Shown here in pieces: positions 329 to 10,886 of a DNA stretch of 64,000 nt. Source of the DNA: Candidatus Scalindua rubra (GTDB taxonomy: Bacteria; Planctomycetota; Brocadiia; Brocadiales; Scalinduaceae); NCBI GenBank assembly GCA_001723765.1, contig MAYW01000003.1, forward strand, positions 1 through 64,000, in the 5' to 3' direction. The notes beneath the pieces were generated by a model that saw only the letters and a program-made list of their open reading frames with translations, was not told the origin of the DNA and ran no database searches. The translations under genes and the position numbers were made by a program. The first letter of the stretch is position 1; the number at the start of each line of letters is the position of its first letter.

Positions 329-1285
329 ATGTTAAAAGAGTTATTAGTGAAATCGGCTTTCTTTGTAAGCATTGCTGCTGCTTTTGTATTTACTTTTAAT
401 GACAAAATATTAGCGCAAGGTTTAGAAAAGGAAGCAAGTATAGAGGAAAACATTCCTACAAAAACACCTTTAATTGTAAAATACTTAAATTTAGATATAA
501 ACTCTACAGATAAGGCATTTGAACAAGTAGATCCATTAAAAATTGAATTACAGATTCAAGATTTGGCATTTCCTAATGGGGGAGGTTCTGTAACTGAGTT
601 AGAAGTTAGAGGTTTTCACAATGGAGAGACGATATTCTTTGGTCTTACATGGAGTGATGAGACAAGGGATGAAAGAGCTATTACGTCTACTCAATATAGG
701 GATGCTGTTGGTATGATGTTCCCTTTAGATATTGTGACTATATCTCCAGAAACGCCATTCAGCCCCAGAATGGGTGATAGGGGTAGGCCAGTCAATATCT
801 GGCATTGGAAGGCTGACTGGGAAAAAGAATTACATTTAGCCGGTGGATACGAGCATATGGAAGACCAGTATCCTAACATGAATAGCGACTTTGATTTTGA
901 TCCAAATCCATTACATTATCATAAAGAAGCATATGAAAGTGTTCCCCTCATGGCAGGTGGAATAGCTGGAGGAAGTATATTATCTAAAGCGAATAGAGGT
1001 CGATCAGTTGAAGATATGAATGCTATAGGGTTTGGAACTCTTACTTCACAAGCCCATCAAGACGTAAAAGGTAAAGGTACCTGGGCTAATGGAAAATGGA
1101 ATGTTGTAGTTTATAGATCCCTGATAACCCCGGATAAAGATGACGTACAGTTCGTGCCTGGTATGGAGACATTCTTTAATGTTGCAGTATGGAATGGAAA
1201 CGAAGGTGATAGAGACGGGCAAAAGTCTATTAGCATAAGGTGGAGTCCTTTAAAGATAGAAAGGGTCGAGTACTTAGCAGAGTAA
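329..1285 (+). CDS. nxrC: Nitrite oxidoreductase gamma subunit NxrC (haem b type)
   Basis: 318 aa. It begins with a Sec-type signal: basic LLVK, hydrophobic FFVSIAAAFVF, and a likely cleavage after ILAQ near residue 30. The mature part resembles the ethylbenzene-dehydrogenase/DMSO reductase type II gamma-subunit family, a beta-sandwich that binds one haem b and passes electrons out of the NxrAB heterodimer. The family call rests on the length, the signal peptide, WSDETRDE-like and WNGNEGDRDGQKS stretches, and above all the position directly before nxrB. The start is set by AAGGAGG nine bases upstream. An 81-base gap separates it from nxrB, which has its own ribosome site. The axial haem ligands cannot be assigned by eye. 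In anammox bacteria the enzyme is placed in the anammoxosome, and the signal fits export into that compartment. Confidence 0.9.
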   Translation: MLKELLVKSAFFVSIAAAFVFTFNDKILAQGLEKEASIEENIPTKTPLIVKYLNLDINSTDKAFEQVDPLKIELQIQDLAFPNGGGSVTELEVRGFHNGETIFFGLTWSDETRDERAITSTQYRDAVGMMFPLDIVTISPETPFSPRMGDRGRPVNIWHWKADWEKELHLAGGYEHMEDQYPNMNSDFDFDPNPLHYHKEAYESVPLMAGGIAGGSILSKANRGRSVEDMNAIGFGTLTSQAHQDVKGKGTWANGKWNVVVYRSLITPDKDDVQFVPGMETFFNVAVWNGNEGDRDGQKSISIRWSPLKIERVEYLAE

Positions 1286-1366: not shown

Positions 1367-2629
1367 ATGACACTTGTTCATAATTGGCATCTCGGAAGAA
1401 CGATGGAATATCCATACTTTGAATCAAGGCCAAAACAGCAATTTGCGGCTGTGTTTAATACAAATAGGTGTATTGCCTGCCAGACCTGTACAATGGCCCA
1501 TAAAAGCACCTGGACATACAGCAAGGGGCAGGAATATATGTGGTGGAACAACGTAGAGACAAAACCTTATGGAGGATATCCACAATTTTGGGACCACAAT
1601 ATATTACAGTTGTTGTGGGACAACGGGAACAACCCGATGGAATGGTATACTTCCGCCGAAGACAAAGATGATAAAAAAGCCCCTTACGGGCTTTACAATG
1701 GCGATACAATATTCGAATTGGCTCAAATAAAGGGTCTTAAACAGCATGCTGTGGGCTATATTCCGGATGATAAGGAATGGAGATTCCCGAATATTTATGA
1801 GGATACTGCTGCGAGTGAGAAAACAAATATTGAGACCGAACAGGTAAGTGAGTATTCAGAACTCCCTGAACATAAGAGATGGTATTTTTATTTGCAGCGA
1901 TTGTGTAATCATTGCACCTATCCGGCTTGCCTCGCTGCATGTCCCAGGAAAGCAATCTATAAACGTAAAGAAGATGGTATTGTTTTAATAGACCAGAAGC
2001 GTTGCAGAGGATATAGAAAGTGTGTAGAACAATGTCCATACAAAAAGCCGATGTACAGGGGTGAAACCCGTATTACTGAAAAATGTATAGCCTGCTATCC
2101 AAGGGTAGAGGGAAAAGATCCGGTTACGAAGGGGCGAAGAATGGAGGCAAGGTGTATGGCGGCTTGTGTAGGTAAGATAAGGTTAAACGGACTTCTTACA
2201 GGTGATCGCAATAAACCCGACCCGAAGAATCCTATGGATTGGTTAATAAGGATTCATAAAGTGGCATTACCTCTTTATCCTCAGTTTGGGACTGAACCAA
2301 ACATTTACTATATTCCGCCGAGATGGGCGCCCAGGGGATACCTGAGGCAGATGTTCGGTCCCGGTGTGGATGAAGCAATCGAGAAATTTTCTGCGCCTTC
2401 CAGGGAATTGCTGGCAATAATGCAACTCTTTAGAACCACACAGACAATGATATCCAAGTTTGAGATTGAGAAAGGAAAAAAGGTTTATGAGACACAGGTA
2501 AACGGGAAGAAGTTCGAGGTGTACGATGATACTGCGATTGGTTACGCGGAAGATGGGACGGAAGTGGTGAGGATTAAAGTTGAAGAGCCAACGTGGGAGA
2601 GTTCAAAAGAAAGGTTTTTCTCGTACTAA
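1367..2629 (+). CDS. nxrB: Nitrite oxidoreductase beta subunit NxrB (multi Fe-S)
   Basis: 420 aa, NarH/NxrB family, the four-cluster electron wire between the molybdopterin subunit and NxrC. Cys motifs run in the usual order: C35-x2-C38-x2-C41; CNHCTYPACLAACP near 183; CRGYRKCVEQCP near 217 (Tyr stands where NarH has the Trp that marks the 3Fe-4S site); and CIACYP with RCMAACVGKIR. Oddity: the fourth ligand of the first motif, normally Cys as in C-x2-C-x2-C-x3-C, is His45 (codon CAT). There is no signal peptide, so the protein is expected to be carried by the Tat-type leader of NxrA. Start ATG follows AAAGGAGG. Lengths and flanking text (GKGQEYMWWNNVETKPYG) match NXR-type beta subunits very well. 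Confidence 0.95.
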   Translation: MTLVHNWHLGRTMEYPYFESRPKQQFAAVFNTNRCIACQTCTMAHKSTWTYSKGQEYMWWNNVETKPYGGYPQFWDHNILQLLWDNGNNPMEWYTSAEDKDDKKAPYGLYNGDTIFELAQIKGLKQHAVGYIPDDKEWRFPNIYEDTAASEKTNIETEQVSEYSELPEHKRWYFYLQRLCNHCTYPACLAACPRKAIYKRKEDGIVLIDQKRCRGYRKCVEQCPYKKPMYRGETRITEKCIACYPRVEGKDPVTKGRRMEARCMAACVGKIRLNGLLTGDRNKPDPKNPMDWLIRIHKVALPLYPQFGTEPNIYYIPPRWAPRGYLRQMFGPGVDEAIEKFSAPSRELLAIMQLFRTTQTMISKFEIEKGKKVYETQVNGKKFEVYDDTAIGYAEDGTEVVRIKVEEPTWESSKERFFSY

Positions 2630-2687: not shown

Positions 2688-3284
2688 ATGAAATACCCGA
2701 AATTTATTGGGATAATTGCTGTATTTATCTTTGTGGGTATGAATGCTGTAGGGATTTGTTCTAAAAGCGTTGTTGCCGAGGAATGGTCCGGTGGATTTGA
2801 GGCATTTAAACCGGCTGATGATACAAAGTACCATATGAGAAATACAGGTAGCATAAATTGGGGATTATATCAAGAACAGTCAAGCGAAAAATCGGAGCCG
2901 CTTATTACAGAATTATACTGGGTGGAACATGGAGGAAAGGGTTGGTTGAACAGACTAAAGGAAGCCGAAGGCCAATCCAGAGTGAAGTATCTAACTCCCG
3001 CGAATTTAGATGAAGGAAAGTACCAGAGTCCATGCCCGTTATGCGGAAAACCAACATATTTTTGGTTGGACAGCGGGCATATAGATAGTGATACAGTGAA
3101 GCATATAAATGCAGATTATCCTGATTGGGAAAAAGCAGACGGTGTTTGCCGTAATTGCTTTGAGTGTTATGCGGTTAGATCAGGTAAATGGTATGACGGT
3201 AACCTGGCATCTACAACAGACCAATATGTGTTTGGATATAAAAAATCTAGACAGGCGCTTGATTATTTTAGCAATGTCAAGTGA
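2688..3284 (+). CDS. Secreted NXR-operon protein with C-terminal zinc-ribbon-like module
   Basis: 198 aa. The N-terminal signal peptide (GIIAVFIFVGMNAVGI) probably ends after VVA-EE near residue 30, so the protein should share the NxrC compartment. Residues 116-168 hold two Cys pairs, CPLC (116/119) and CRNC (154/157), with PDW before and GKW after the second pair. The same 53-residue pattern recurs at the C-terminus of the HExxH protein encoded at 4360-5352. It lies 58 bases after nxrB behind its own AGGGAGG. A secreted partner in the nxr operon could be the tubule-associated NXR subunit reported for Kuenenia, or a maturation factor. This is inference from location, since no catalytic motif is visible. 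Confidence 0.75.
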   Translation: MKYPKFIGIIAVFIFVGMNAVGICSKSVVAEEWSGGFEAFKPADDTKYHMRNTGSINWGLYQEQSSEKSEPLITELYWVEHGGKGWLNRLKEAEGQSRVKYLTPANLDEGKYQSPCPLCGKPTYFWLDSGHIDSDTVKHINADYPDWEKADGVCRNCFECYAVRSGKWYDGNLASTTDQYVFGYKKSRQALDYFSNVK

Positions 3285-3521
3285 TAGACTCAAAAAAACT
3301 GAAATGGTAGCCGCACCTTTAGGTTGCGCCTAACCTTTAAGCTGCACCGTATATGAGGTTTTTTGTTAGTTTTTAGGTATTTATGTAAATTTAAAATTCC
3401 TGTTCCGACTCGCCCAGCCTTTTCTTATCCTGCTCTTTTTATAAAAAATGCGGATATTAAAAAGAGCTAGACTCGTTCGGGTTAAGGATAAATTAGCTAT
3501 TTAAAAAATTAAAGGAATATT
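3285..3521. repeat. Structured intergenic block between the NXR genes
   Basis: No gene. It holds an imperfect hairpin (GCTCTTTTTATA at about 3432-3443 against TATTAAAAAGAGC at about 3455-3467) and the right arm of the inverted repeat (3470-3486). A second CGACTCG word lies near 3408. A purine-rich AAAGGAA precedes the GTG start at 3522. Confidence 0.55.
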
Positions 3522-4292
3522 GTGTCAAACGAAAAGAATGAGAAGGTAGAGAAATTACTTGCATCCAGCCAAATATACCAGTTTCTTTCGATGTGCCTTT
3601 TTGAACCGGATGAAAAATTAGTTGAATTCCTGAATAATAAGGATTACATGAACGAAGTAGGAAGTTGTCTGAGAATGAACGGTAACGGTGAATTGTCAGG
3701 GACTTTTAAATGTGTGCAGGATGAGCTTAAAAACATATCACCGGATATAATGCATAAAGGATATCTGCATATGTTTGGTAATGCAACTGTAGCCATGGAT
3801 TGTCCACCTTATGAAATGTACTTCAGCGGTTCTCACATATATCAACAAACACAAGACTTGGCTGATATTTCAGGATTCTACAGGGCGTTTGGATTAGAAG
3901 TATCAAAGGACGACACTAATAACAGATGGGATCATATAGCCGTAGAACTGGAGTTTCTGCATTTCCTAACTTATAAAATAGCATATGCGATCGAAAATCA
4001 TGGAGAAAAGGAACTGGAGTCATGTGCTACCGGGAAGAAAAAGTTTTTAAATGCACATATTGGTAGATGGATACAGGCTTTTTCAAAAGCTGTAGAGAGA
4101 AAGACTACCGTGGAGTTTTACAGACAGGTTGCAAAGTTGGCTAATGATTTTGTTCATCTTGAAATGAAAAATCTGGGGGTCAGTGCCGAAGAGATAGATG
4201 AATTGCAAAGTGGAGAACCTGATTATTTGCAAAGGCTTGAAGGTAAGAGCGCCTCGGCATGTGATTCATGTATGGAAGAAGAGAAGTATTAA
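3522..4292 (+). CDS. TorD/NarJ-type chaperone for NxrA
   Basis: 256 aa, GTG start (MSNEKNEK) with AAAGGA six bases upstream. The TorD/DmsD/NarJ all-helical family is recognised by the core: YEMYFSG near residue 105, then ADISGFYRAFGLEV, then WDHIAVELEFLHFLTYK. These chaperones bind the Tat leader and apo-catalytic subunit of molybdoenzymes, so nitrate-reductase-like NxrA can receive its cofactor before export. The gene lies between nxrCB and nxrA, where such a chaperone is expected (often called NxrD). The C-terminal tail has CDSCMEE, an unusual Cys pair of unknown role. Cytoplasmic; no signal peptide. Confidence 0.85.
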   Translation: MSNEKNEKVEKLLASSQIYQFLSMCLFEPDEKLVEFLNNKDYMNEVGSCLRMNGNGELSGTFKCVQDELKNISPDIMHKGYLHMFGNATVAMDCPPYEMYFSGSHIYQQTQDLADISGFYRAFGLEVSKDDTNNRWDHIAVELEFLHFLTYKIAYAIENHGEKELESCATGKKKFLNAHIGRWIQAFSKAVERKTTVEFYRQVAKLANDFVHLEMKNLGVSAEEIDELQSGEPDYLQRLEGKSASACDSCMEEEKY

Positions 4293-4359
4293 TGAAGTTA
4301 TGGATATCGCAAAATTTTTAGATATTGTAATTTGATCTGTGCTTTGGTCGGAGTATTAT

Positions 4360-5352
4360 ATGCTTGATAAAAACCAAAATGCCACACAAAATCTTACACT
4401 AGAGAAGGATGTAGGGCATGAGATAATCTACGATATTCAATTAGTTGACGATATAGTATTTAAAGGTCTAGCCGAGAGAGAGAGGCATGGTGACATTGAG
4501 TTGTACAATAAGTACCATGAACTGAGAGATGGAATTTATGAAATTGAACAGGAAAATAGGCCAAAGAGATTTAGAGACCTGGATAACGATTTCTTTCATC
4601 GGTTAGGCTATGATATTTTTTTAAAAGAAATACTAAATGAATACCCCGGAATAAAGGATAAGATTGAGGAAGTGCACGTAAGAAGGGCGACCACTAAGCA
4701 AAATGAAGGATCAAATGTAGTTGACAATGGTAAAAAGGTTATAATAAGGTTGTATCCGGAACAGTTTATAGAAGGTGGTAAAGAAATACATAAGGTGCTT
4801 GCTCATGAGCTTATGCATGTTTCTGACATGATGGATGAAGATTTTGGTTATAGCGTGGAACATTTTGACTGTTCTCCTATGGAAGAACGTATAATAAGAG
4901 ATAGATACAGACTTTTCTGGGATATTTACGTGGATAGCAGACTTGAAAGAGAAGGAAAAGAATCTATCGCCAACAAGGAGATTCGAAAGAAAGAGTTTGA
5001 TTCATTTTTCAGTAAGATTCCAGAAGATACCAGAGGCTCAATATTTGAGAAAATGTGGGGAGGAAAAGAGCCTCTAACACACCCTAAAATGATCGAATTG
5101 TCTAAGGATATTAATAAAGTTCTTGCGATAGCGAAAGAAGGTAATCATGAGAATGAAGCAGAAAGAGTAGGACCTCTTCCGGGGACTACCTGCACACTGT
5201 GTGGATTCCCATCATTCGAATGGGTAGAAGACATAGAAAGTGATGAAGAAGTCGTTAAGATTTTAAAGGAGGATTTTCCCGATTGGAGTCCACATGATGG
5301 TGTATGTCCCAGATGTGTGGAATATTATAAAGTGAAAGCCGGTAAATGGTAG
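4360..5352 (+). CDS. HExxH metalloprotease-like NXR accessory protein with zinc-ribbon-like tail
   Basis: 330 aa from ATG 4360. An upstream GTG at 4339 is open, but TCGGAG six bases before 4360 favours the ATG. The centre carries HELMH (residues about 149-153), the zinc-binding signature of gluzincin-type peptidases, followed by an acidic stretch that may give the third ligand. The last 55 residues (CTLC ... PDW ... CPRC ... GKW) match residues 116-168 of the secreted protein at 2688-3284. There is no signal peptide or membrane segment, so it is cytoplasmic. Placed between the chaperone gene and nxrA, it could process or quality-control an NXR component. Peptidase activity is inferred from the motif only. 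Confidence 0.7.
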   Translation: MLDKNQNATQNLTLEKDVGHEIIYDIQLVDDIVFKGLAERERHGDIELYNKYHELRDGIYEIEQENRPKRFRDLDNDFFHRLGYDIFLKEILNEYPGIKDKIEEVHVRRATTKQNEGSNVVDNGKKVIIRLYPEQFIEGGKEIHKVLAHELMHVSDMMDEDFGYSVEHFDCSPMEERIIRDRYRLFWDIYVDSRLEREGKESIANKEIRKKEFDSFFSKIPEDTRGSIFEKMWGGKEPLTHPKMIELSKDINKVLAIAKEGNHENEAERVGPLPGTTCTLCGFPSFEWVEDIESDEEVVKILKEDFPDWSPHDGVCPRCVEYYKVKAGKW

Positions 5353-5444: not shown

Positions 5445-5533
5445 ATTACAAAACAGTGAGAAATGGATAGCTTAACATAAGTTATTAAATAGTTCATATT
5501 TACCATATTAAATTTTTATAAAGGAGGATGCTT

Positions 5534-8500
5534 ATGAAACTTACACGAAGGACATTTATAAAGATCGCCGGAGGGATAACAGCAGCGGTTTCAATACCTA
5601 CGAGAAAGGCGCTTGCTTTTAAATCATTAAAGCCTGCGGTAGAGGTTGTTAATCCTCTTGATTATTATCCTGAAAGAGAATGGGAAGATGTTTATAGAAA
5701 CCAATATCGATATGATCGCTCGTTTTCATTTTGTTGCTCTCCTAACGATACCCATCAGTGCAGGGTGAGGGCATTCGTGAGGAATAATGTTGTAGTAAGG
5801 ACAGAGCAGGATTATGAACATCAGGATTACACGGATATTGAAGGAAGACAACCACAAAGGAGCTGGAATCCGAGGATGTGTTTAAAAGGTTTTACTTTAT
5901 TTAGAAGGGTATACGGTCCGCATAGATTAAGGTTTCCGATTCTCAGGAAGGGCTGGAAGCAGTGGGCGGATGATGGGTTTCCGGAGCTTGACTGGGAGAA
6001 CAGGGAAAAATATAAATTTACATCCAGAGGTACCGATGAGCATATTAGGATGTCATGGGATAATATACTCGATTACGTAGCGAGGGGTATGATTCACATA
6101 GCAAAGACATACAGTGGCGAAGAGGGAAAGAAAAGGCTGCTGGAGAGAGATAAATATGCTCCGGAAACGCTTACACATTGGCACGGCGCCGGCACCAGGT
6201 GTTTTAAAACCCGTGGTGGGATGGGGTTATTAGGCGTTATAGGAAAGTATATGGGACAATATCGTTTTTGTAATATGCTTGCCCTTCTTGATGCTAATGT
6301 AAGGGGTGTAGGTCCGGACAAGGCACAGGGAGGAAGAAGATTTTCAAACTATACATGGCATGGCGACCAGGCGCCCGGTCATCCTTTTTCCCACGGCTTG
6401 CAGACGTCAGATATTGATTTTGCAGACTTGAGGTACTCTAAGTTAACTATACAAGTTGGAAAGAACCTGATTGAGAACAAGATGCCGGAGTCGCACTGGT
6501 TAACAGAAATTATAGAGAGGGGTGGTAAGATAGTGGTTATTGCGCCTGAATACAATCCTGCTGCAACAAAGGCTGATTACTGGATACCTGTCAGGACAGG
6601 ATTGTCGGATACTTCTATATTCCTCTGCATCGCTAAAATACTTATTGATAAGAAATGGTATGATGAAGACTATGTTAAGAAGTTCACAGATTTCCCTCTT
6701 CTGGTAAGGACGGATACGCTTAAACGACTAAAGGCGGACGAAATATTTGAGAACTATAAACATGAAAAGCTCGAATATTCTAAAGAGGTACAGGGACTGA
6801 AGGATAAACAAAGAGAGCAGATAGGGGATTTTGTTGTATATGATAAAAAATCAAAAGGCTTTAAGGCGATAACAAGAGAGGATGTTGGTAAGAAACTCTT
6901 TGCAAAGGGTATAGATCCTTCTCTCGAAGGCACGTATAAGGTGAAGACTTTAGACGGTAAGGAAGTAGAAGTTATGACACTCTTTGATATGTATAAAGTA
7001 CACCTTAGAGATTTTGATGTGAAAACAACTTCAGATATTACGGGATCTCCTGCACACCTGATCGAAAGGCTTGCCAAGGATGTAGCAACCATTAAGCCTG
7101 TATCCATACATTACGGAGAGGGAATAAATCATTATTTCCATGCAACTCTGCATAATAGGGCAACATATCTGCCATTAATGTTAACTGGTAACGTAGGGTA
7201 TCATGGATCGGGTTCACATACGTGGGCGGGTAATTACAAGGCTGGAAACTTTCAGGCATCAAAATGGTCTGGACCAGGGTTTAAGGGTCCAATAGCGGAG
7301 GATCCTTTCAACATGAACCTGGACCCTTATCTAGATGGCAAAAAAGTAAAAGCCCGCAGCTATGCAATGGACGAAGAAGTTGCATTTTGGAACCATGGAG
7401 ACACTCCGTTGATTGTAAATACACCCAAGTACGGCAAGAAATGCTTTACTGGAAAGACACACCTTAATACTCCTACTAAGTCATTGTGGTTTAATAATGT
7501 CAATCTTATAAACAATGCAAAATGGGTGTATGAGATGCTAAAGAATGTGGGTCCTAAGATAGACTTGATTATGTCAAGCGACGTGATAATGACCGCATCC
7601 GTACAATATGCGGACGTTGGATTACCGGCAAATTCCTGGATGGAGTTTGAGACTTATGAAGTTACGAGTGCGTGTTCTAACCCGTTTTTGCAGGTATGGA
7701 AGGGCGGCATAAGGCCATTGCACGATTCAAAAGATGATGTACTGATGAGCGCCTTGCTTGCAAAGAAAATAGGAGATATTCTTGGGGACGGCAGGTTTGC
7801 AGATTACTGGAAATTTGCGCTTGAGGGTAGACCTGAGGTGTATATGCAGAGGCTTTTTGATGGCAGTGTTCCGACAAGGGGTTATAAGGTAAATGACATC
7901 ATTGCAGGTAAGTATGGCGTTCCGGGTGGCGCGCTCATGAACTTCCATACATATCCCAGGTTGCCATTATACGAACAGGTGACCTATGACCGTCCGTTCT
8001 TTACTGATGATGGAAGACTCCATGCCTACTGTGACATACCGGAGGCGATTGAATACGGAGAAAACTTTATATGTCATAGGGAGGCTGTAGAAGCGACACC
8101 TTATCTTCCAAACGCTATTGTTAGTACAAACCCGTATATAAGACCTGATGATTACGGAGTACCGAAGAGTCATATGGGAGCGGATGAGCGTCATGTAAGG
8201 AACATAAAAATGCCCTGGAGTGAGGTAAAAAAGACAAAAAATCCTTTATGGGAAAGAGGTTACAAATTCTTTTGTGTTACACCCAAGACAAGACACAGGG
8301 TGCATTCTCAATGGAGTACGGTGGATTGGAATCTTATCTGGGATAGCAACTTTGGAGATCCATATAGGATGGATAAGAGGTCTCCTGGTGTAGGCGAACA
8401 CCAGCTTCACATTAATCCACAGGCAGCAAAGGATTTGGGCATTAACGATGGTGATTATATATATGTGGACGCAAACCCGGTTGATAGGCCGTACAGGACC

Positions 8501-8980
8501 TGGAAGCCTAATGATCCATTCTATAAGGTTGCAAGACTTATGGTAAGGGCGAAGTATAATCCTGCATATCCATACCATACGACCATGATGAAGCATGCCC
8601 CATACGTGGCAACCGAAAAGAGCGTTAAGGCGCACGAGACGAGGTCTGACGGCATGGCGATGTCATCGGATGGATATCTTTCTAATTTCAGATATGGTTC
8701 GCAGCAATCGATAACCAGGTCATGGTTGATGCCGATGCACATGACAGATACCCTTTTCCATAAGAAGAAGGTTGCAATGGCTTACATGCACGGTGGTGAG
8801 GCGGACAATCATACTGTAAACACGGTTCCAAAAGAAACCCTTGTGAGGATTACAAAAGCCGAGGATGGAGGATTGGGCGCTAAGGGAATTTGGGAGCCTT
8901 CTAAAACAGGCTTTACACCGGCAAATGAGAGTAAGTTTATGAAACTATATCTTGAAGGTGGAACCACAAAGGTTGAATAA
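5534..8980 (+). CDS. nxrA: Nitrite oxidoreductase catalytic subunit NxrA (molybdopterin)
   Basis: 1148 aa from ATG 5534. The ATG at 5528 touches AAGGAGG and is too close, while 5534 has a six-base spacing. The leader LTRRTFIKIAGG is a twin-arginine signal. Next come Cys67-Cys68, Cys76 and Cys116 for the FS0 cluster region (CCSPNDTHQC ... MCLKG). The rest is a type II DMSO-reductase family fold that binds bis-MGD molybdenum (QVGKNLIENKMPESHW, NVGYHGSGSHTWAGN, and a C-terminal molydopterin-dinucleotide domain from about residue 920). It oxidises nitrite to nitrate, feeding electrons via NxrB and NxrC. Length matches NXR-type alpha subunits. It is preceded by its chaperone and followed by a terminator, so it ends the operon. 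Confidence 0.96.
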   Translation: MKLTRRTFIKIAGGITAAVSIPTRKALAFKSLKPAVEVVNPLDYYPEREWEDVYRNQYRYDRSFSFCCSPNDTHQCRVRAFVRNNVVVRTEQDYEHQDYTDIEGRQPQRSWNPRMCLKGFTLFRRVYGPHRLRFPILRKGWKQWADDGFPELDWENREKYKFTSRGTDEHIRMSWDNILDYVARGMIHIAKTYSGEEGKKRLLERDKYAPETLTHWHGAGTRCFKTRGGMGLLGVIGKYMGQYRFCNMLALLDANVRGVGPDKAQGGRRFSNYTWHGDQAPGHPFSHGLQTSDIDFADLRYSKLTIQVGKNLIENKMPESHWLTEIIERGGKIVVIAPEYNPAATKADYWIPVRTGLSDTSIFLCIAKILIDKKWYDEDYVKKFTDFPLLVRTDTLKRLKADEIFENYKHEKLEYSKEVQGLKDKQREQIGDFVVYDKKSKGFKAITREDVGKKLFAKGIDPSLEGTYKVKTLDGKEVEVMTLFDMYKVHLRDFDVKTTSDITGSPAHLIERLAKDVATIKPVSIHYGEGINHYFHATLHNRATYLPLMLTGNVGYHGSGSHTWAGNYKAGNFQASKWSGPGFKGPIAEDPFNMNLDPYLDGKKVKARSYAMDEEVAFWNHGDTPLIVNTPKYGKKCFTGKTHLNTPTKSLWFNNVNLINNAKWVYEMLKNVGPKIDLIMSSDVIMTASVQYADVGLPANSWMEFETYEVTSACSNPFLQVWKGGIRPLHDSKDDVLMSALLAKKIGDILGDGRFADYWKFALEGRPEVYMQRLFDGSVPTRGYKVNDIIAGKYGVPGGALMNFHTYPRLPLYEQVTYDRPFFTDDGRLHAYCDIPEAIEYGENFICHREAVEATPYLPNAIVSTNPYIRPDDYGVPKSHMGADERHVRNIKMPWSEVKKTKNPLWERGYKFFCVTPKTRHRVHSQWSTVDWNLIWDSNFGDPYRMDKRSPGVGEHQLHINPQAAKDLGINDGDYIYVDANPVDRPYRTWKPNDPFYKVARLMVRAKYNPAYPYHTTMMKHAPYVATEKSVKAHETRSDGMAMSSDGYLSNFRYGSQQSITRSWLMPMHMTDTLFHKKKVAMAYMHGGEADNHTVNTVPKETLVRITKAEDGGLGAKGIWEPSKTGFTPANESKFMKLYLEGGTTKVE

Positions 8981-9215: not shown

Positions 9216-10886
9216 TTGCAGATTACGTTGATTTTTCCACCATCCTGGATACCATCTCAACCTTTTTTAAGTTTACCTTCATTACAAGGATTTCTTAAGA
9301 AGGAAGGCATTCATGATGTTTCAATTCGTGATTTGAATATAGAAGTCATGGATACCCTACTTTCTAAAAAAAGGGTAGAAGATACTTATGTAAAAGTAAA
9401 TGAGAGGATTAGGAGAGGCGGAAAATCATTCGGCAATGACACAGACAACTCTGGTGAAACTGAAAGAATAGAGTGGGTTAAGGAAGTTATTGAATTTGAA
9501 AACATGTTCCAGAAAGTAGAGTGGGCTAAGGCAACATTGAAATCTGAAGGGTTTTATGATATTAATGATTATGTGGAGAGTTGGAAGATTATTGACAGAT
9601 GGCTACAAGCATATGGCATGTTGTATTATCCATCTGAGATAACTATTACTGACAATTCTATGAAGTATAGTGTATATTCATCCTCAGATATTATAAAGGC
9701 TGCTGATGATGAAAATGAAAATCCATATCGTGACCTCTTTCAAGGACATATACTTGACTCAATTGTTAAGGATGGGCCATCTCTCGTTGGTATCTCTGTA
9801 ACGGCAACATCTCAGGTAATGCCTGCATTTACATTAGCAAGACTGCTGAAAGAAAGAAACAAGGATACTCATATAACAATGGGAGGAAGTGTATTTACAA
9901 AGCTTATAGATAATCTAAAAGGGCCGCATAAATTATTTGAACTTGTAGACAGCTTTATTGTATTTGAAGGAGAACACGCTCTACTAAACTTAATCGAGCA
10001 ACTTGATGGTAAGAAGGATTTTAGTAAGGTACCCAATCTTGTATATAGAGATGGAAATAAGACTCGTGTAAATGAGCCATTTCATATTGAAGACATAAAC
10101 TCTCTTCCTACACCTGAGTATTATGGTTTTCCTTTTGAATCGTATCTGTCTCCAATGCGAGTTCTACCATTGCAAAGCTCAAGGGGGTGTTACTGGAGAA
10201 AATGTACATTTTGTAATCTCCATATAGATAACCTACGATTCAGATTGAGGAATTTAGATTTAGTGCTTGAAGATATAGAAAAACTGAAAGAAGAGTACGG
10301 TACTAGATATATGTTCTTTAGCGATGAGTGCATGCCTGTTAAACAGTTGGATAATTTGAGCTTGCGATTGATTGAAGAGGGCAATGACGTAAAATGGATG
10401 GCAGGAGTAAGGTTTGATAGAGGACTTACGAAAGACATAATACAGAAAGCCAGAGACGCAGGATGTCTTAAGATGGTTTATGGTCTTGAATCTTCTAACA
10501 AAAGAATCCTTTCATTGATGGAAAAGGGTATAGAAACTGAAACAATTAAAAGTATTATAGGATATTGTTTGGATTCGGGTGTTGCCATACACATGTATAT
10601 TATCGTCGGATTTCCATCAGAAACCAGGGAAGAAGCGCTTGAAACTCTTGATTTCATAAGATCTAATGACGGGTTTATAAAATCCAGAGGGGCTTCTTGC
10701 CTTCCATGCCTCTTTGAGTTGGAGAAATATGCTCCCATAATGCGTGATCCTGGAAAGTATGGATTAACAAAAATAGCGCATCCAAAACGAGATGATATGA
10801 GTCTTGGTTATTTTTACGAGACAAACAAGGGAATGACTCCTGATGAGGCATGTAATGTTTACGGATATGTAAAAAGGAATAGATAA
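9216..10886 (+). CDS. B12-binding-domain radical SAM protein
   Basis: 556 aa, TTG start with AAGGAGT five bases upstream. Residues 1-200 look like a cobalamin-binding Rossmann domain (ITLIFPPSW ... LVGISVTATSQVMPAFTLARLLKE ... ITMGG). The radical SAM core has CYWRKCTFC (Cys-x4-Cys-x2-Cys, near 323-331) followed by YMFFSDECMP and later IYIIVGFPSETREEA. Such enzymes do methylations or rearrangements, and the substrate is not predictable. The 3' end looks frameshifted: in another frame the DNA stays open from just after the stop to 11004, coding KSLPIFPYNFSMSDG and further residues. The original protein was therefore probably about 38 residues longer. It sits downstream of the nxr terminator, so it has its own transcription unit with the ferredoxin-like genes. 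Confidence 0.8.
   Translation: MQITLIFPPSWIPSQPFLSLPSLQGFLKKEGIHDVSIRDLNIEVMDTLLSKKRVEDTYVKVNERIRRGGKSFGNDTDNSGETERIEWVKEVIEFENMFQKVEWAKATLKSEGFYDINDYVESWKIIDRWLQAYGMLYYPSEITITDNSMKYSVYSSSDIIKAADDENENPYRDLFQGHILDSIVKDGPSLVGISVTATSQVMPAFTLARLLKERNKDTHITMGGSVFTKLIDNLKGPHKLFELVDSFIVFEGEHALLNLIEQLDGKKDFSKVPNLVYRDGNKTRVNEPFHIEDINSLPTPEYYGFPFESYLSPMRVLPLQSSRGCYWRKCTFCNLHIDNLRFRLRNLDLVLEDIEKLKEEYGTRYMFFSDECMPVKQLDNLSLRLIEEGNDVKWMAGVRFDRGLTKDIIQKARDAGCLKMVYGLESSNKRILSLMEKGIETETIKSIIGYCLDSGVAIHMYIIVGFPSETREEALETLDFIRSNDGFIKSRGASCLPCLFELEKYAPIMRDPGKYGLTKIAHPKRDDMSLGYFYETNKGMTPDEACNVYGYVKRNR

Follow-up and report, generated by a model that had tools for sequence, protein, structure and literature searches.

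The 64,000 bp window, the whole stretch of Candidatus Scalindua rubra DNA analysed here (positions 1 to 64,000 of contig MAYW01000003.1), carries a nitrite oxidoreductase (NXR) locus in which the genes are ordered nxrC, nxrB, a gene encoding an exported 198-residue protein, the torD-like nxrD, a gene encoding a protein with an HExxH motif, and nxrA (Table 1). NxrB is 72-88% identical to its relatives at anammox nxr loci. The gene order matches that of the published Scalindua profunda nxr cluster (nxrA scal00863, nxrD scal00865, nxrB scal00867 and nxrM scal00868; PMC3655542), and by their positions in that order scal00866 and scal00864 should be the S. profunda counterparts of the exported and HExxH proteins. 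The ATG at 4360 is the more likely start of the HExxH gene than the upstream GTG at 4339, because relatives begin there and GGAG lies just upstream. The exported protein consists of a signal peptide (approximately residues 1-30), a family-specific domain (approximately 31-112), a four-cysteine module (113-168) and a C-terminal extension; the HExxH protein has no signal peptide.

Table 1. Coordinates of genes and motifs at the nxr locus, in window positions.
Feature	Position	Strand	Evidence
nxrC, haem b gamma subunit (ethylbenzene dehydrogenase-type), Sec-type signal peptide	329..1285	+	PF09459 E 1e-37; TIGR03477 E 4e-37
nxrB, iron-sulphur beta subunit	1367..2629	+	TIGR03478 E 5e-73
Exported 198-aa protein	2688..3284	+	13 full-length relatives; GGAGG ribosome site; nucleotide changes concentrated at third codon positions
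Four-cysteine module of exported protein (C116, C119, C154, C157)	3024..3191	+	BLASTP, alignments, hhalign
torD-like chaperone (nxrD)	3522..4292	+	PF02613 E 1.5e-15; TIGR03482 E 9e-23
HExxH protein, zincin-like domain and C-terminal module, 330 aa	4360..5352	+	listed ORF 4339-5352, with upstream GTG start
HELMH motif codons of HExxH protein	4804..4818	+	sequence
Four-cysteine module at C-terminus of HExxH protein	5182..5349	+	BLASTP, alignments, hhalign
nxrA, molybdopterin catalytic subunit, Tat signal	5528..8980	+	TIGR03479 E 1e-93; TAT_signal E 0.01

Two other features of the region are noted. The arms of a 22-nt inverted repeat containing AACCCGAACGAGTC (43-64 and 3470-3491, 91% complementary) lie on either side of nxrC, nxrB and the exported-protein gene, one of them in the intergenic region before torD. 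To the right of nxrA, positions 9216-10886 encode a 556-residue radical-SAM/B12-binding-like protein; a close relative follows nxrA at all own-family loci whose downstream side was examined and at none of the Brocadiaceae-type loci.

The exported and HExxH proteins share the four-cysteine module. Residues 114-168 of the exported protein match the last 55 residues of the HExxH protein in one ungapped 55-residue alignment with 44% identity (BLASTP, E 4e-16), the Smith-Waterman score of the pair is 154 compared with a maximum of 60 in 2000 shuffles, and a profile-profile comparison (hhalign) of the alignments of the two families gives a probability of 99% and an E value of 9e-18 over 56 columns. 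The preliminary description, that two proteins flanking the torD-like chaperone gene inside the nxr locus have tails that align directly, is thus borne out, including the motifs C-x-L-C-G-x-P, D-x-P-D-W, D-G-V-C-x-x-C and Y-x-V-x-x-G-K-W. The module lies at the extreme C-terminus of the HExxH protein and is followed by about 30 further residues in the exported protein. Both window copies have CxxC pairs about 35 residues apart with a conserved tryptophan and glycine before the second pair. All four cysteines are retained in 47 of 47 copies and are invariant in the module alignments A3 and A4; both CxxC pairs, W14, W35 and Y49 are invariant in 21 diverse anammox copies.

The predicted fold of the module is a treble clef and not the zinc ribbon first suggested. 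In a zinc ribbon both CxxC pairs sit on beta knuckles, whereas the second CxxC begins a helix in both predicted structures (residues 317-326 of the 330-residue HExxH protein and 155-164 of the exported protein), and the zinc-ribbon label is therefore rejected. The HExxH protein model is confident (mean pLDDT 86), and that of the exported protein is poor except for the module. A metal bound by the module would be structural and probably zinc, and a role for the module in metal loading, as initially proposed, is not supported. Sequence searches of Pfam, NCBIfam and PDB with the HExxH and exported proteins, Foldseek searches with both models, and searches of plasmid and viral collections for relatives yielded nothing useful.

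The HExxH protein is closely associated with NXR. All 12 own-family genomes with a near-complete nxrA carry both the HExxH and exported proteins, and the tailed HExxH protein is present in 28 of the 29 nxrA-containing genomes of a second anammox family (Kuenenia/Brocadia-type, assigned by gene order); in the single exception nxrA is cut by the contig start. At all nxr loci examined in these two families the HExxH gene is situated directly upstream of nxrA and downstream of torD, and in the second family it corresponds, as placed by gene order, to the unnamed Kuenenia gene kustd1701. Several genomes of the second family (G015, G017, G027, G014 and G036) contain two nxrA genes and one HExxH gene, such that the second nxrA is without its own copy. 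The HExxH protein is also present in L031 (DCWS01000034.1), a sister of the window's own family. This metagenome-assembled genome is labelled Desulfobacteraceae bacterium UBA2156 but has a Scalindua-like nxr locus, with 85% identity in NxrA; the label appears to be wrong, or else the bin is mixed. A 52-residue 'orphan tail' in G022 was considered as a decayed copy and rejected, as it is cut by a contig end.

A broader relationship is seen outside the anammox order. A profile search with the module identifies copies in further planctomycetes, and the surroundings of these matches contain tailed relatives of the HExxH protein in 24 genomes. At 20 of the 24 loci nxrA, nxrB or torD is in the same stretch, and the remaining four are at contig ends. 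Among non-anammox genomes the tailed protein is found in 22 of 35 with NXR and two of approximately 322 without (Fisher p 6e-24), where a genome is counted as having NXR if NxrA identity is at least about 50%, the counts were compiled by hand, and the total of 322 is approximate. In the NxrA tree the loci lacking the HExxH protein fall into a single, well-supported group with seven members and the long branch of a further family, f3. The tree and the pattern of occurrence therefore link the protein to much of the NXR family rather than to anammox itself. The synteny comparison thus ties the HExxH protein and its tail strongly to NXR loci far beyond the anammox bacteria, and the protein displays both the genetic linkage and the co-occurrence with NXR that were looked for in a maturation factor. 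No NxrB columns were found that distinguish loci with the HExxH helper from those without.

The f3 locus (L077, in genome G005) has an nxrA that falls outside the other anammox NxrA sequences on a long branch, the gene order nxrC-A-B-torD, an nxrC with two CxxCH motifs, and no HExxH gene. Scanning the genome contigs for relatives gives one match only. A tailless HExxH paralogue with an intact HELMH is located elsewhere in the genome (G000:C40, L079 7257-7889), about 3.6 kb downstream of putative hydrogenase genes; similar tailless paralogues are present away from nxr in the window's own family and in f3. We also note that several non-anammox planctomycetes have a short acidic open reading frame (approximately 93-119 residues) between nxrA and nxrB (L109 6603-6884, L116 12285-12623 and L118 12387-12746).

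The exported protein has a much narrower distribution. Its full-length relatives share approximately 50-65% identity and are all in the window's own (Scalindua-like) family, where the gene adjoins nxrB at the loci examined. None was found in genomes of the second anammox family, the protein is absent from the whole genome of the sister lineage L031, and a search of all the DNA collected for relatives of its N-terminal domain yielded nothing useful. The exported module is equally distant from the tails of the two anammox families (38% and 39% identity), and a recent duplication of the Scalindua tail is therefore not supported.

The exported protein had been suggested as a candidate for the tubule-associated NXR subunit known from Kuenenia, and would then be the tubule-inducing NXR-T in the Scalindua-like lineage. 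Both are exported, and both are encoded in an nxr cluster (that of Kuenenia for NXR-T). Such an identity is contradicted by the composition of the protein and we regard it as highly improbable. NXR-T (Kustd1705) is described in the structure paper as a monohaem cytochrome c with a four-helix bundle (PMC8387239), and is unrelated in sequence to the exported protein, which has CPLCG and CRNCF at its cysteine pairs and whose family has the haem-binding CxxCH in none of 14 members. Moreover, NXR-T-like monohaem proteins are encoded at other loci in 16 of 17 own-family genomes; the structure paper reported the same arrangement for genera other than Kuenenia (PMC8387239). None was found in the window's own genome, which is incomplete.

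The N-terminal part of the HExxH protein resembles zincin metallopeptidases (SprT/Wss1, M61 and M91) in its HExxH helix and in weak profile and fold similarities (M91 and SprT-like in Pfam; M61 and Wss1 in Foldseek), but has no significant match to them; weak-scoring Pfam matches to terminase and M91 were below threshold and left unused. One explanation gives the protein an active metalloprotease role specific to NXR, in which it trims a subunit or controls its quality while the module holds the substrate, a logic comparable to that of the hydrogenase maturation proteases. The motif is indeed intact (HELMH or HELTH) in 27 of 27 anammox copies, and elsewhere the module has been joined to a protease fold a second time, at the N-terminus of subtilases in two planctomycetes (L126 7980-9623, PF00082 E 1e-37; and L149 4388-9727, by inspection). 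However, H149 or H153 is replaced in eight tailed copies (NEWRH in L102, AELVR in L106, VELTR in L108, HELLL in L109, HEFLR in L114 and PELEH in L120; also L130 and L148), and the first histidine is lost in all four tailless NXR-locus copies (L074, L075, L133 and L134), such that intact and degenerate motifs number 16 and eight among non-anammox copies with the tail and zero and four among those without (p 0.024, ignoring shared ancestry). A third metal ligand is not evident: beyond HExxH, the aligned intact copies have no acidic residue or histidine in common, D192 being missing from several of them. The available text of the structure paper reports no processing of NXR (PMC8387239). We consider an active protease possible but on balance unlikely. 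E150, R182 and W187 do not vary across 35 aligned cores, and D156 hardly does; because the histidines are repeatedly lost while these four residues stay, the domain seems to be a zincin-derived scaffold that may have kept catalysis in some lineages.

Alternatively, the module could be a generic metal-binding domain of planctomycetes that lacks a common partner and was recruited separately onto the two NXR-locus proteins. It does occur elsewhere, and the question of whether it is found mostly outside NXR loci has a mixed answer: most of the copies identified belong to NXR-locus proteins, but about nine are in standalone or subtilase-fused proteins with no visible link to NXR. The standalone proteins (60-94 residues; L122, L123, L124, L125, L127 and L150) match the profile with E values of approximately 1e-5 to 1e-10, and the N-terminus of DUF1003 proteins (L151 and L152) is a remote match (E 5e-3 to 7e-3); both have the same CxxC...W...C pattern but lie outside NXR loci and have no zincin domain. 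A match to IspG (L153) is attributed to chance. The equal distance of the exported copy from the tails of both anammox families also suits separate recruitment, whereas the predominance of NXR-locus proteins among the copies and the G-K-W with which both window copies end C-terminally argue against it, and we find this explanation doubtful. For the exported protein specifically, a further scenario is that NXR of the Scalindua-like family includes it as an additional stoichiometric subunit, such as a tubule cap or linker, with the module as a docking domain. Its export, its presence in 12 of 12 NxrA-bearing family genomes, its position beside nxrB and the degree of identity among its relatives are consistent with this. 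Its absence from L031 and the Brocadiaceae-type genomes shows that it is not needed for NXR in general, and the S. profunda main text does not mention the gene between nxrD and nxrB in the scal00868-00861 cluster (PMC3655542); an extra subunit thus seems rather improbable.

The explanation we favour, to which we assign about an even chance, makes the HExxH protein an assembly factor specific to NXR that acts in the cytoplasm together with TorD, the exported partner acting after export. The targets of the HExxH protein and the TorD-like chaperone before Tat export would be NxrA and/or NxrB. The zincin-like domain would serve mainly as a scaffold, and the C-terminal treble clef would be a protein-recognition element holding a structural metal, probably zinc. 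In the window's family the module would also be taken into the anammoxosome by the second protein, which in the simplest reading binds the same NXR surface there, either to help late in assembly or as an accessory subunit specific to the lineage. We infer the cytoplasmic action with TorD, the binding to NXR, the metal and everything concerning the role of the exported partner. More speculatively, NXR could be served by one recognition module on either side of the membrane. In the cytoplasm the module would sit on a largely non-catalytic zincin helper that passes NXR from the chaperone to the Tat pathway, and beyond the membrane on a lineage-specific exported protein that finishes or regulates assembly in the anammoxosome. 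Of the suggestions made initially, a part in NXR maturation is the best reading, and a tubule subunit and metal loading are not supported.

In Kuenenia, transcripts but no proteins were detected for kustd1701 and the torD gene kustd1702, whereas the products of nxrA, nxrB and nxrC are abundant in the proteome (PMC6423088), and the components reported for purified NXR and tubules are A, B, C and T (PMC8387239). Together with the tie to NXR and the neighbouring torD, this fits a substoichiometric cytoplasmic assembly factor. Several observations count against an assembly factor built on a scaffold. The HExxH motif is intact in all of the anammox copies and, elsewhere, in 16 of the 24 copies with a tail, and catalysis may matter there; four NXR loci retain a tailless copy, indicating that some lineages can do without the module; no HExxH protein is encoded at the locus in f3 or in one clade of NXR-like loci; and the module is also present on proteins unrelated to NXR.

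The TorD/NarJ/DmsD-type chaperones of molybdoenzymes are operon-encoded helpers dedicated to one enzyme and absent from the final complex. They offer a proposed functional parallel to the HExxH protein but are not related to it in sequence, the latter having a putative zincin-like fold and metal module. Its closest known counterpart is the unnamed gene kustd1701 of Kuenenia stuttgartiensis, annotated as 'unknown protein', which lies between torD (kustd1702) and nxrA (kustd1700) and has the same architecture in Brocadiaceae-type genomes; it has never been characterised, and the literature searched mentions neither its HExxH domain nor the exported relative of its module. Lucker et al. (2013, PMC3578206) listed a 'putative zinc finger' protein among the genes that the nxr clusters of Nitrospina, Nitrospira and Kuenenia have in common. 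Going by the paper's description, in which the gene is not identified, this protein, kept alongside NXR and TorD, probably belongs to the HExxH family. The system had been proposed as undescribed, and this stands for the shared module and the HExxH domain, of which no description was found in the literature searched, but not for the nxr-cluster zinc finger, which was already on record, unnamed, in 2013.

NXR makes most of the nitrate in nature and, to our knowledge, little is known of how it is assembled. The comparisons described here define a conserved and testable NXR accessory family across the anammox bacteria and many other planctomycetes, and remove a tempting but wrong candidate for the Scalindua tubule subunit. 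The combination of an often degenerate zincin and a treble clef beside torD and nxrA could also provide a signature for marking true NXR loci in uncultured genomes.
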